Shown one piece after another: positions 45,357 through 47,800 of a stretch of DNA of 47,800 nucleotides (within the stretch, counting starts at the first letter, position 1; the number at the start of each line of letters is the position of its first letter). The stretch lies in the NCBI GenBank assembly GCA_021774795.1, contig JAJFIR010000041.1, positions 1 through 47,800 on the forward strand, given 5' to 3'. The notes beneath the pieces were generated by a model. The model was not told the DNA's origin and ran no database searches. It saw only the letters and a program-made list of their open reading frames with translations. Source of the stretch: Emcibacteraceae bacterium (GTDB lineage: Bacteria > Pseudomonadota > Alphaproteobacteria > Sphingomonadales > Emcibacteraceae). The position numbers and the translations under genes are program-made.

Positions 45357-45548
45357 TTCGTCTGATCCTTCCTGTATTTAATTACATATGGGAACAATAT
45401 GCAGGATAACAAGAATGGTTCGTTTGCCAGAAGTTTTCAACATATAAAAAATTCCGCAAAAAAGTGTATTTTTTTATTGGCAATGTAAATAAGGGGCTGT
45501 ATAAGATGCCAACCAAATCGGCATTTGCCGCATTAAAGTGATCAATAT

Positions 45549-45624
45549 TCCCCGATAGCTCAGTTGGTAGAGCAGTAGACTGTTAATCTATTTGTCGCAG
45601 GTTCGAGTCCTGCTCGGGGAGCCA
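45549..45624 (+). tRNA. tRNA-Asn (anticodon GTT)
   Basis: A full cloverleaf of 76 bases including the encoded CCA. Acceptor stem TCCCCGA/TCGGGGA, D-arm AGCTCAGTTGGTAGAGC, anticodon stem GTAGA/TCTAT with loop CTGTTAA (anticodon GTT at 45582-45584), and T-arm with GGTTCGAGTCC. Confidence 0.95.
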
Positions 45625-45984
45625 CTTTTTATTCTTTTCTCCATATAAAATTAGTTTATAGAGCCAAATCATTGTAAAATATGATTGTTGGACAAATCAT
45701 CATAAAATAATTGAAACATGTCCCAAAATAAGAATATTGCCTAAATACTGTAAAATTTATTTACACACATTTTTCTGTAAATACTTCATTAACCATCTAA
45801 CATACTGAAAACATTAATTTTTAGAAAGTTGGCATACCTTTAGCATGTATGATTACATGAATTTGTAACTTTAAGAAGTTAAAATTATCAGTCTAAGAAA
45901 AATCCAGATCGATATAATTGACAGTTAAAACCGTAATAATAATCGGCTGGCTATCGATTAAATTTGGGAAACTGGGGAGTATAA
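45625..45984. other. AT-rich upstream region of the acylation locus
   Basis: 360 bp without a gene. It contains the second copy of the TGATTGT...ATCATCATAAAA block (45682-45707), a sigma54-like element at 45830-45845, and a TAACTT-TAAG-AAGTTA palindrome at 45866-45881. It is the likely promoter region of the genes at 45985 onward. Confidence 0.5.
45830..45845 (+). promoter_or_regulatory. Sigma54-like promoter candidate
   Basis: TGGCATACCTTTAGCA has the GG-N10-GC spacing of -24/-12 promoters and differs from TGGCAC-N5-TTGCA at two positions. It lies about 140 bp before the first start of the acylation locus. Confidence 0.3.
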
Positions 45985-46113
45985 ATGTTTTTTGTTTATA
46001 GTTTGAGGAAATATGGCAACGATCCCGCGATGATCATCGAGGTCGGCATCACTTCAGGTTATGCGAAATTAGCTGGCTTAATAGATGCTGACGACATAGC
46101 GCAAAGGGACTAA
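45985..46113 (+). CDS. 42-residue ORF resembling the N-terminus of an AMP-dependent acyl ligase
   Basis: Starts at ATG 45985 behind GGGGAG and ends one base before the next ATG. The product, FVYSLRKYGNDPAMIIEVG followed by ITSGYAKLAGLIDADDIAQR, matches the start of adenylate-forming ligases (LRxYGDxPALIxExGxxxSYAELAxxxDA). Everything after that, including the AMP-binding and catalytic parts, is missing. Because start and coupled stop are both kept, it could be a ligase gene with a large in-frame internal deletion. It could also be a real small protein. The missing ligase would have loaded the carrier domain encoded next. Confidence 0.45.
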   Translation: MFFVYSLRKYGNDPAMIIEVGITSGYAKLAGLIDADDIAQRD

Positions 46114-46114
46114 A

Positions 46115-47446
46115 ATGGCCATTCATAATCCTTCCAGTGCCGCCAATCAAGACGAACCGGAATACCAAAACATATCCGAAGCTTATTCAGAAATAATGGG
46201 AATTGAAGAAGTTTGTGATTCAGATAGTTTTTTAAACTTTGGCGGAGATTCTCTGGGTTTCATATTGGTATCGATGGCTGTCGAAAAATATATTGATTTT
46301 CTTCCCCCTAACTGGGAAGCCCTGACAATTAAAGAATTGGAACTTATTAAAACCAATCAATTTAAAAGTGATCCGGGTAGCATCCCGCTTAAGAAAAGTT
46401 GGGTCGCCATTGGTTTAATAATTTTCTTTTTTATTTTGGGAGAAGTATTATTACAAACGCGAAACTATTATAAAACCGGTAGAAGCGCATATACATTGCT
46501 CACGGCCGGAAGCGGCCTGATGTTTAATGAAGACTTGGGAACAAGCACATATAGGCCAAATTTGACGTTCTCGCCGTATGAGGATGTTGTTTATTCCATC
46601 AATTCTCTTGGACTGCGCAGCCCAGAAATACCCATTCAAAAAGAAGCGAATGAACTTCGCATTGCCGTTGCAGGCGCCTCTACAATTGCTGGCATATTTG
46701 CCGAAACGAATGACCGCACATTATCGGCTATTCTTGAAAAAAAATTGCGGAACGAAATCGCTAAAAACTACAATGTCAACGTGATTAACGGTGGAATTGA
46801 AGGAAATACTATGGCCGGCATTCAGGAAGTAACAGAGAATATCCTGGTTAAGATGCAGCCTGATATCATCATTATTTACCCTGGATTAAATGACCTGTCG
46901 ATGATTTGTGGGGAAATAGAAAAAGAAGCCGTTGAATATAAAGGTTTCGACTATTACCCAAAGATTCCAGGCTGGGTCCTGAGCAAGGAATTGATCAAAA
47001 AAAACACATTATTTATAAGGGAATCAAAAGCAAAAAACGTAGAAATGTTTGACCCTCAGGATTTAGACACGACTGCTTACCGTCAAACGCTTGATAATTT
47101 AGTCAATAATATTAAAAAACAAGGCATTAAACCGGTTTTAGCAACTGTAGCACGCGCCTATAACAACTCAGATGCAACACTTGAAGAAAAAATAGATATT
47201 GCCGTATCGGCGTTATACTACAGCCCCTGTCTTGATATTAATTCATTAATTGAAACTGGTGAAAAATACAATTCTGAAATGGAACTCGTAGCCGCGAAAT
47301 ATCAAGTTCCAATTTTAGATCTTGCAAAGCACATGCCCGGAGGCGAAGACTATTTCGCCGATGGAGGTCATTTTAATTTTGAGGGTGAGAAGCAGGCGGC
47401 AACAATTATATTGGAGCAATTGAAATCTTTAGAATTAGTGAATTAA
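46115..47446 (+). CDS. Carrier-protein / TM / SGNH-hydrolase fusion
   Basis: A 443-residue fusion. Residues about 17-80 form an acyl- or peptidyl-carrier domain with the phosphopantetheine Ser46 in NFGGDSLGFIL. One membrane helix follows (about 95-114, WVAIGLIIFFFILGEVLLQ). The rest is an SGNH/GDSL esterase-type domain outside the membrane: Ser189 in VAGAST, Gly in NGGIEGNT, Asn259 in YPGLND, and Asp416-His419 in DGGHFNF. In Dlt systems the carrier (DltC) and the SGNH protein (DltD) are separate. Here they are one chain, so a cytoplasmic acyl-loaded carrier is tied to an extracytoplasmic hydrolase/transferase. It is coupled to the preceding ORF and to the MBOAT gene (TAAAATGG junctions on both sides). 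Confidence 0.8.
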   Translation: MAIHNPSSAANQDEPEYQNISEAYSEIMGIEEVCDSDSFLNFGGDSLGFILVSMAVEKYIDFLPPNWEALTIKELELIKTNQFKSDPGSIPLKKSWVAIGLIIFFFILGEVLLQTRNYYKTGRSAYTLLTAGSGLMFNEDLGTSTYRPNLTFSPYEDVVYSINSLGLRSPEIPIQKEANELRIAVAGASTIAGIFAETNDRTLSAILEKKLRNEIAKNYNVNVINGGIEGNTMAGIQEVTENILVKMQPDIIIIYPGLNDLSMICGEIEKEAVEYKGFDYYPKIPGWVLSKELIKKNTLFIRESKAKNVEMFDPQDLDTTAYRQTLDNLVNNIKKQGIKPVLATVARAYNNSDATLEEKIDIAVSALYYSPCLDINSLIETGEKYNSEMELVAAKYQVPILDLAKHMPGGEDYFADGGHFNFEGEKQAATIILEQLKSLELVN

Positions 47447-47447
47447 A

Positions 47448-47800
47448 ATGGCAGTTACATCTCTCTCCTATTTTGCATTTTGCTTCATCGTCCTTGTCGT
47501 TGTCACCGCGCTTCAAAAGGACAACGAAAAGAAAAAACTTTTTCTCATGCTTTCGAGTTACTACTTCTACTCGACTATAGATTGGCGATTTTCAATTTTA
47601 TTGATTACGCTGACGGTACTCAACTTTATAGCCGGTAGAGTTATTGACACCTCACCCAGAGCTATCATCCGTAAATCAGCCCTCGCCGTCGCTATTATTT
47701 TGAGCCTTAGCATCTTATTTTATTTCAAGTATGTGAATTTCTTTTTTGCCTCAATATAAGATTTCCTAAACTTATTCGGCATGAGTGGTCAAAGCCCCGT
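47448..47800 (+). pseudogene. MBOAT O-acyltransferase, 5' part, with an in-frame stop
   Basis: The start of an MBOAT (AlgI/DltB-like) acyltransferase. After a first helix comes KLFLMLSSYYFYSTIDWRFS, then ILLITLTVLNFIAGRVIDTS and LSILFYFKYVNFFFASI. SYYFYxxxDWRF and FYFKYxNFF are typical early MBOAT motifs. The frame meets TAA at 47757-47759 and continues without shift as DFLNLFGMSGQSP up to the window edge, exactly as an MBOAT would. So the stop is probably a point change (for example CAA to TAA) or a base-calling error. The catalytic His region lies outside the window. It should move an acyl group across the membrane from the carrier encoded upstream. Confidence 0.65.

Follow-up and report, generated by a model that had tools for sequence, protein, structure and literature searches.

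At the end of contig JAJFIR010000041.1 (contig C36) in a genome of an Emcibacteraceae bacterium, a 443-residue open reading frame (ORF) probably encodes the carrier-transferase half of a compact, Dlt-like module for acylating the cell envelope. The predicted protein joins a carrier domain, a single transmembrane (TM) helix and an SGNH domain, and the frame of an MBOAT gene starts 1 base past its stop. Judged from its domains, the module resembles Dlt condensed into two chains, the fusion and the MBOAT, and its architecture would be a variant of ligase-carrier-MBOAT-SGNH systems that are otherwise known as separate parts. The copy described here is reduced and perhaps decaying, with no adenylation (A) domain in cis and a stop codon in the MBOAT gene. 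The window, that is, the whole stretch of 47,800 nucleotides analysed, ends where contig C36 stops, at 47800; the assembly comprises 3.93 Mb in 58 contigs (completeness, 99.53; contamination, 3.92). The chain, its domains and the MBOAT gene lie as follows, "Sedimenticola" standing for Sedimenticola sp. N3M-Bin_8, which has a homologous chain.

46115..47446, + strand: carrier-TM-SGNH fusion ORF, 443 residues (from the ORF list, Pfam and the Sedimenticola alignment)
46160..46348, + strand: carrier domain, approximately residues 16-78, with Ser46 in GGDSL (codon 46250-46252) and a C-terminal PxxWxxLT (from Pfam and carrier alignments)
46382..46453, + strand: single membrane helix, approximately residues 90-113, predicted N-in/C-out (hydropathy peak of 1.94 at residues 90-108)
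46661..47401, + strand: SGNH domain, residues 183-429, with Ser189, Asn259, Asp416 and His419 (from PF13472 and PF00657)
47448..47800, + strand: 5' part of the MBOAT gene, with an in-frame TAA at 47757-47759, continuing at the start of contig C39 (from the frame and the contig join)

The carrier-helix-SGNH chain is real. As a preliminary description of this DNA had proposed, a carrier-like region, one membrane helix and an SGNH domain are all carried by one ORF, and Ser46 (in GGDSL), Ser189, Asn259, Asp416 and His419 sit where that description placed them. The SGNH domain scores 44 bits with PF13472 (Lipase_GDSL_2) over residues 187-425 (cut-off, 32.9) and 33.5 bits with PF00657, also above cut-off, and it combines these Pfam scores with the catalytic Ser, Asn and Asp/His of an SGNH protein. 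Ser189, Asp416 and His419 are invariant in a five-row SGNH alignment, in which Asn259 varies, and carrier-free relatives show an aligned hydrophobic stretch in the region of the helix.

The carrier domain is weakly scoring yet appears convincing. PF00550 (PP-binding) gives 20.4 bits with residues 1-90 alone and 17.3 bits with the whole protein (match over residues 21-60), neither reaching the cut-off of 20.8, and the window carrier was absent from the six matches of a whole-genome PF00550 search. For comparison, the Sedimenticola carrier scores 19.7 bits and a carrier of the same kind in a Pararhizobium ligase-carrier protein scores 23.8. The window carrier aligns with the latter without a gap (24 of 64 positions identical; pairwise E, 3e-17), Ser46 and Leu47 are invariant in all nine aligned carriers, with the serine in the (D/N)SL context of a modifiable residue, and a nine-row carrier profile that includes the window sequence finds peptidyl carriers in the PDB, among them PvdL and gramicidin-synthase chains, at 1e-18 to 1e-15. 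Because of the Pararhizobium match, the two invariant residues and these PDB matches, we take the domain to be a genuine carrier despite its score. Residues 1-90 thus do resemble carrier models, with a Pfam match slightly below cut-off, and Ser46 is conserved, so this part of the preliminary description stands. Six of the nine carriers (window, Sedimenticola, Paracoccus, Novosphingobium, Pararhizobium and genome G076) also have PxxWxxLS/T at the C terminus, and the PxxW stretch is missing from both carriers of contig C39 and from that of genome G705. Only about 15 to 20 residues separate carrier from helix, and therefore the tether may fairly be expected to hold the carrier near the cytoplasmic face of the MBOAT.

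Within the window, the MBOAT frame runs for 103 codons from 47448 to the in-frame TAA, 41 bases short of the contig end, and this part matched no Pfam model. The remainder forms the initial open frame of C39 (ORF 3-1070), which scores 85.2 bits with PF03062 (cut-off, 27) and is the only PF03062 match in the genome at an E value of 0.001. The end of C36 and the start of C39 have CCGT in common, and joining the contigs there gives an MBOAT reading of 472 codons; the Sedimenticola MBOAT likewise has 472 residues. Read through the TAA, the joined protein is identical to that MBOAT at 261 of 459 positions (57%) with no gap, the stop being the sole defect. The coupling to an MBOAT gene that had been proposed therefore holds in that such a gene lies directly downstream, but only its 5' part is in the window, with an in-frame stop. 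DltB provides the closest solved structures to the Sedimenticola MBOAT in the PDB (E, 2.5e-28), and the C39 part scores 159.8 bits with the DltB equivalog TIGR04091, below the cut-off of 375.

An SGNH subfamily profile built from six sequences recovered seven distinct loci above 370 bits, those six included, with the next match at 139 bits. They are the window, Sedimenticola (L072), genomes G009, G010, G006 and G049, and a Spartinivicinus plasmid (L120). An MBOAT gene lies directly downstream in all seven, and every one of the seven MBOATs ends in FIYFQF, fitting the acyl-shuttle motif FxYxxF. A carrier is found in two members, the window and Sedimenticola; the five carrier-free copies (four genomes and the plasmid) gave no carrier match at an E value of 1 in the fetched stretches of 11-19 kb. 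The Sedimenticola chain is 41% identical to the window chain over residues 9-437, from carrier to SGNH, with the carrier serine kept. Its open frame, 620 codons truncated at the edge of its contig, encodes at least the C-terminal part of an A domain, then carrier, helix and SGNH, and is followed by the intact 472-residue MBOAT gene; the ligase part was assigned by NCBIfam ligase models (best, 59.3 bits), PDB ligases and 48% identity to a ligase of contig C39. The tethering of a carrier to the extracytoplasmic transferase, which the preliminary description had suggested as a distinct design, is thus seen a second time beside an MBOAT gene, but in Sedimenticola a ligase part is fused into the same chain.

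The carrier-TM-SGNH chain is rare within what was searched and comes from two distant proteobacterial classes. The window protein was searched against 99 relatives, 396 genomes from the order and 385 from the class, and alignments were searched against 398 genomes from the phylum and 210 from Sedimenticola's order; these sets are overlapping samples. Outside the window's genome, the matches listed include only two that span carrier and SGNH, those of G705 and Sedimenticola. Of 18 loci from a pattern-limited scan of genome contigs (84,980 species genomes by description) with a five-row alignment, Sedimenticola alone spans both domains. A genome-contig scan with the fusion sequence alone returned no relative, a viral-contig scan returned nothing, and a plasmid search with the fusion returned two records, neither with the whole chain. 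Our literature search, limited to titles, abstract openings and passages of open-licence PMC papers, found no description of a carrier-SGNH fusion. Many homologues with Ser46 and the same neighbours would have supported the preliminary description; Ser46 and the MBOAT are indeed kept in Sedimenticola, but such chains amount to two of the seven close members plus G705, which has no helix between the domains. The distant A-carrier-SGNH chain of G705 occupies a frame of 1158 codons (L043:5982-9455), with two hydropathy peaks within its A domain and none between carrier and SGNH, and the 15 kb fetched for this locus gave no MBOAT match. A chain without a helix at that point would leave the SGNH domain cytoplasmic.

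In a tree of nine MBOAT rows, two of them outgroup, the window and Sedimenticola form a clade with support of 100/100, and between these carrier-fused members and the carrier-free ones the MBOATs share 46-51% identity. Among 12 genus-mates searched, three have the SGNH-MBOAT pair, and in none of these was the carrier-linked form found. Its presence in an alpha- and a gammaproteobacterium and its absence from these three suggest that it spread horizontally.

Several observations weigh against a Dlt-like module at this locus. In this assembly, the ligase is missing in cis and the MBOAT gene has its in-frame stop, and the carrier score falls just below the Pfam cut-off. The assignment of C36 and C39 to a single genome depends on the assembly, with its estimated contamination of 3.92, and on the split MBOAT gene. 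Given the carrier-free SGNH-MBOAT pairs, the carrier is dispensable for the family as a whole. Only one further genome with the carrier-TM-SGNH chain plus MBOAT was found; its chain begins at a contig end, and Pfam finds no AMP-binding domain in that fragment at an E value of 0.01. Moreover, the two carrier-bearing rows group weakly in the SGNH tree (74/66).

Of the alternatives, the one that fares best holds that the locus is a decaying relic with no present function, in which an ancestral A-carrier-TM-SGNH chain lost its A domain by internal deletion, leaving the 42-codon ORF upstream, and the MBOAT gene then gained a nonsense codon. We regard this as doubtful but with a real chance of being right. 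There is no in-frame A domain (no segment of 45360-46114 scored above -0.9 bits with a five-row profile of short-type A domains), yet the 443-residue ORF is intact and aligns across carrier, helix and SGNH with its catalytic residues kept, and the genome also has an intact carrier-AT3 protein that lacks an A domain. The TAA within the MBOAT gene is what such a history would leave, but it lies 41 bases from the contig break, where an assembly error is plausible, and the MBOAT is otherwise gap-free over 459 residues. The third point in favour of a relic is the 42-codon ORF, which can be aligned start-to-start with the N termini of A domains. This mini-ORF and the tRNA gene preceding it have the following positions.

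45985..46110 (ATG at 45985, stop at 46111-46113), + strand: mini-ORF of 42 codons, identity unproven
45549..45624, + strand: tRNA-Asn, upstream of the locus, context only

The gene order is thus tRNA-Asn, mini-ORF, fusion ORF and MBOAT frame. The preliminary description had called the mini-ORF ligase-like. It is no working ligase, for which 42 codons are too short whichever its origin, and perhaps no ligase piece at all; it matched no Pfam model and also fits a class III aminotransferase segment. In profile tests of 5000 shuffles each, in which only shuffles scored by HMMER were counted, it gave 13.8 bits, start-to-start, with a nine-row profile of 70-residue ligase N termini, and none of 4269 shuffles scored as high; the trimming to 70 residues had been chosen after an earlier test located the match at the N terminus, which biases this figure. 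With the same nine rows at 460 residues, it scored 6.0 bits (1 of 2528 shuffles as high), and with an earlier wide ligase profile 5.0 bits (1 of 2723). A four-row set of class III aminotransferases, itself biased by having been fetched with the mini-ORF as query, gave 15.5 bits (0 of 2840), and a ten-row aminotransferase set gave 6.1 bits (1 of 2621 and 1 of 2639 in two runs). Wide ligase and aminotransferase profiles therefore score the mini-ORF alike, and the statistics do not separate them. Three NCBIfam aminotransferase models matched it at E values of 0.0067 to 0.099 (ten scrambled strings gave one NCBIfam match, at 0.19), as did three aminotransferases in the PDB at 0.17-0.65. An assignment as an aminotransferase scrap, based on PDB, NCBIfam and relatives, was given up after the profile tests fitted ligase N termini too. 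In BLAST comparisons with the genome's own proteins, 5 of 2000 shuffles reached the best ligase score and 703 of 2000 the best aminotransferase score. The mini-ORF is possibly a remnant of the N terminus of an A domain or of a class III aminotransferase; the former is somewhat favoured, though unproven, because the homologous Sedimenticola chain has an A domain at this position.

A reading of the mini-ORF as a piece of a short-type A domain was dropped, as it gave -1.3 bits, a value reached by 367 of 2760 scored shuffles; the BLAST alignment of the mini-ORF with the C39 ligase, immediately ahead of the TSGTEG motif (23.5 bits), falls in the region of that reading. GC content is 0.437 in the mini-ORF and 0.264 in the preceding 360 bases. 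The idea of a genomic island at the tRNA-Asn gene was likewise dropped: a 30-base pattern from the 3' end of the tRNA gene occurred exactly in none of 62 fetched loci besides three that hold the window itself, and integrases were not searched.

Contig C39 also bears on how the carrier might be loaded. At 20.5-24.4 kb from its start (G000:C39:20451-24379; L025:1452-5380), it encodes an 869-residue ligase-carrier-membrane protein and then a 454-residue ligase-free carrier-AT3 protein. The latter scores 38.4 bits with PF01757 (AT3; cut-off, 31); Pfam lists no AT3 for the former, whose last ~447 residues are 50% identical to the 454-residue protein (451 aligned positions). A ligase-free carrier-AT3 protein in the same genome is a precedent for tethered carriers without an A domain of their own. 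The C39 ligase could then charge its own carrier, that of the adjoining carrier-AT3 protein and that of the carrier-TM-SGNH chain, so that one ligase would supply a single kind of acyl group to three membrane-tethered carriers. We consider this possible but on balance unlikely. The split MBOAT gene places C36 and C39 next to each other, but the two loci are ~19 kb apart and do not form a single operon. Among seven A domains compared with the Sedimenticola fragment, that of C39 is the nearest (48% identity over 191 residues), followed by those of Paracoccus (39% over 193), Novosphingobium (39% over 183), G705 (27% over 131) and R. etli (25% over 112); G076 aligned only in stretches of 27 and 13 residues, and Pararhizobium gave no match. 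The C39 ligase is also the only one of ten AMP-binding matches in the genome with an in-frame PF00550 carrier, in a search that missed the window carrier. However, the C39 carriers lack PxxW and are 21 and 15% identical to the window carrier in the alignment, so cross-recognition is not obvious.

The same loci offer hints at cargo and acceptor. The best models for the C39 ligase are PRK06187 (145 bits) and an exosortase-associated ligase (123 bits), both far below their cut-offs, and an amino-acid adenylation model gives 84.8 bits; for the Sedimenticola fragment, the only models to pass 1e-10 are those of acyl-CoA and o-succinylbenzoate ligases. Because both A domains score better with acyl-CoA ligase than with amino-acid adenylation models, a non-amino carboxylic acid is the better guess for the cargo. 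ORFs near the C39 ligase match the models for XrtA/PEP-CTERM ATPase at 280 bits and for PrsT at 188.8 bits, below the respective cut-offs of 324.5 and 312.2, ORFs preceding the ligase region were read by eye as nucleotide-sugar (rml-type) genes, and one ORF of the Sedimenticola locus scores above the cut-offs of both exosortase-A-associated hydrolase models. Such exosortase-associated and rml-type neighbors make an exopolysaccharide the likeliest acceptor.

The least probable account treats the carrier-like N terminus as vestigial or structural and has the pair use acyl-CoA like PatA/PatB and the carrier-free relatives. It draws on the five carrier-free members among seven and on an MBOAT end motif typical of acyl-CoA users according to excerpts of PMC12148441, but we think it improbable, as Ser46 and its surrounding motif are kept in both carrier-bearing members, whose MBOATs form a clade of their own.

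For the Dlt-like module that we favor, the following order of steps is inferred. In the cytoplasm, an A domain would load a carboxylic acid onto the phosphopantetheine on Ser46 of the carrier, and the short tether would keep the charged carrier where the MBOAT opens to the cytoplasm. The MBOAT would shift the acyl group onto the Tyr in its C-terminal motif; Ser189 of the SGNH domain outside would receive the group next, and an extracellular glycan last. In the genome of the window, the C39 ligase-carrier protein ~19 kb further on would have to load the carrier in trans, or else the locus is decaying. The excerpted text of PMC12148441 describes how PatA acetylates the Tyr of its own C-terminal FxYxxF from acetyl-CoA and hands the group to an SGNH protein, and how Dlt performs the same MBOAT-Tyr-SGNH transfer using a carrier and DltX; excerpts of PMC3783018 give an N-in/C-out topology for DltD. 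Because of this PatA/Dlt mechanism and DltD topology, the route from carrier to Tyr to Ser189 is deemed the most likely.

Compared with Dlt itself (DltA, DltC, DltB, DltD and DltX; teichoic acid D-alanylation), the module would have the same ligase, carrier, MBOAT and SGNH roles, an MBOAT whose closest solved relative is DltB, and an SGNH protein apparently anchored N-in/C-out. In contrast to Dlt, the carrier (together with a ligase part in Sedimenticola) is fused to the SGNH protein and there is no free DltC-type carrier; the shuttle motif is on the C terminus of the MBOAT rather than on DltX, for which no dedicated search was made; the window encodes no ligase, and that of Sedimenticola is a fused part; and the C39 and Sedimenticola A domains prefer acyl-CoA ligase models over the amino-acid adenylation model. 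PatA/PatB, which O-acetylates peptidoglycan, likewise has an MBOAT ending in FxYxxF (here FIYFQF) beside a gene for a TM-anchored SGNH protein. In the excerpts of PMC12148441, however, PatA/PatB is described without a carrier and with an acyl-CoA donor, as are the MBOAT-SGNH pathways other than Dlt, whereas the SGNH chain described here bears a tethered carrier. AT3-SGNH fusions such as OafB and OatA also join envelope acyl-transfer parts in one membrane protein, but there the channel is fused to SGNH, with acyl-CoA the presumed donor in the portions available of PMC9833829 and PMC9558356; here the carrier is fused and the channel is separate. AlmEFG, which places glycine on Vibrio cholerae lipid A, is another Gram-negative ligase-carrier-transferase route, built, unlike this one, of separate proteins with a different transferase family (in part from PMC3783018).

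The ligase-carrier-membrane acyltransferases of rhizobia, Paracoccus, Novosphingobium and the window genome share with the fusion a carrier tethered to a membrane acyltransferase, and those of Paracoccus, Novosphingobium and Pararhizobium share the related PxxW carrier. Most of the annotated records listed for these proteins carry the label "AMP-binding protein". They differ in that the transferase is an AT3-like multi-helix domain and not SGNH plus MBOAT. Pfam AT3 exceeds its cut-off of 31 only in the C39 454-residue protein; Pararhizobium scores 16.2, and the remaining assignments draw on similarity, hydropathy or visual inspection. Rhizobial plasmids (L121:4624-7290, L129:3980-6589 and L130:3977-6634) encode such ligase-carrier-membrane acyltransferase-like proteins, annotated as AMP-binding protein, and of 1912 records with a match, 84 cover at least 80% of the Pararhizobium query. 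In the proteins of Paracoccus, Novosphingobium and C39 (L126:4992-7436, L127:4914-7466 and L025:1452-4061), the A domain starts only ~80 residues before TSGTEG, without the usual N-terminal stretch. G076 (L119:4428-7159) has a ligase-carrier didomain of 555 residues and, in divergent orientation to it, a stand-alone gene of AT3-like type (27.5 bits; cut-off, 31), and this pair is perhaps the unfused counterpart of the ligase-carrier-AT3 proteins. Elsewhere in the window genome (G000:C34:58196-62112), a 582-residue AMP-binding frame, a 90-residue carrier frame and a weak match to PLP-dependent aminotransferases lie close together, possibly as a lipid cluster.

These comparisons point to a group of proteobacterial proteins, often labeled only "AMP-binding protein", in which ligase and carrier are coupled directly to a membrane acyltransferase. 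A bolder proposal, which we think unlikely but worth stating, is that the system is a distinct class of machine, in which the carrier is tethered through the membrane to the final transferase, with A domain, carrier and SGNH in one chain in Sedimenticola; an MBOAT clade would take acyl-carrier instead of acyl-CoA while keeping the shuttle Tyr, and one ligase would feed three carriers (two AT3-like, one SGNH-MBOAT) that decorate the same exopolysaccharide. Importantly, the subfamily contains carrier-fused and carrier-free members side by side, with the same MBOAT end motif, and it thus lends itself naturally to asking which features of an MBOAT set the choice between acyl-carrier and acyl-CoA.

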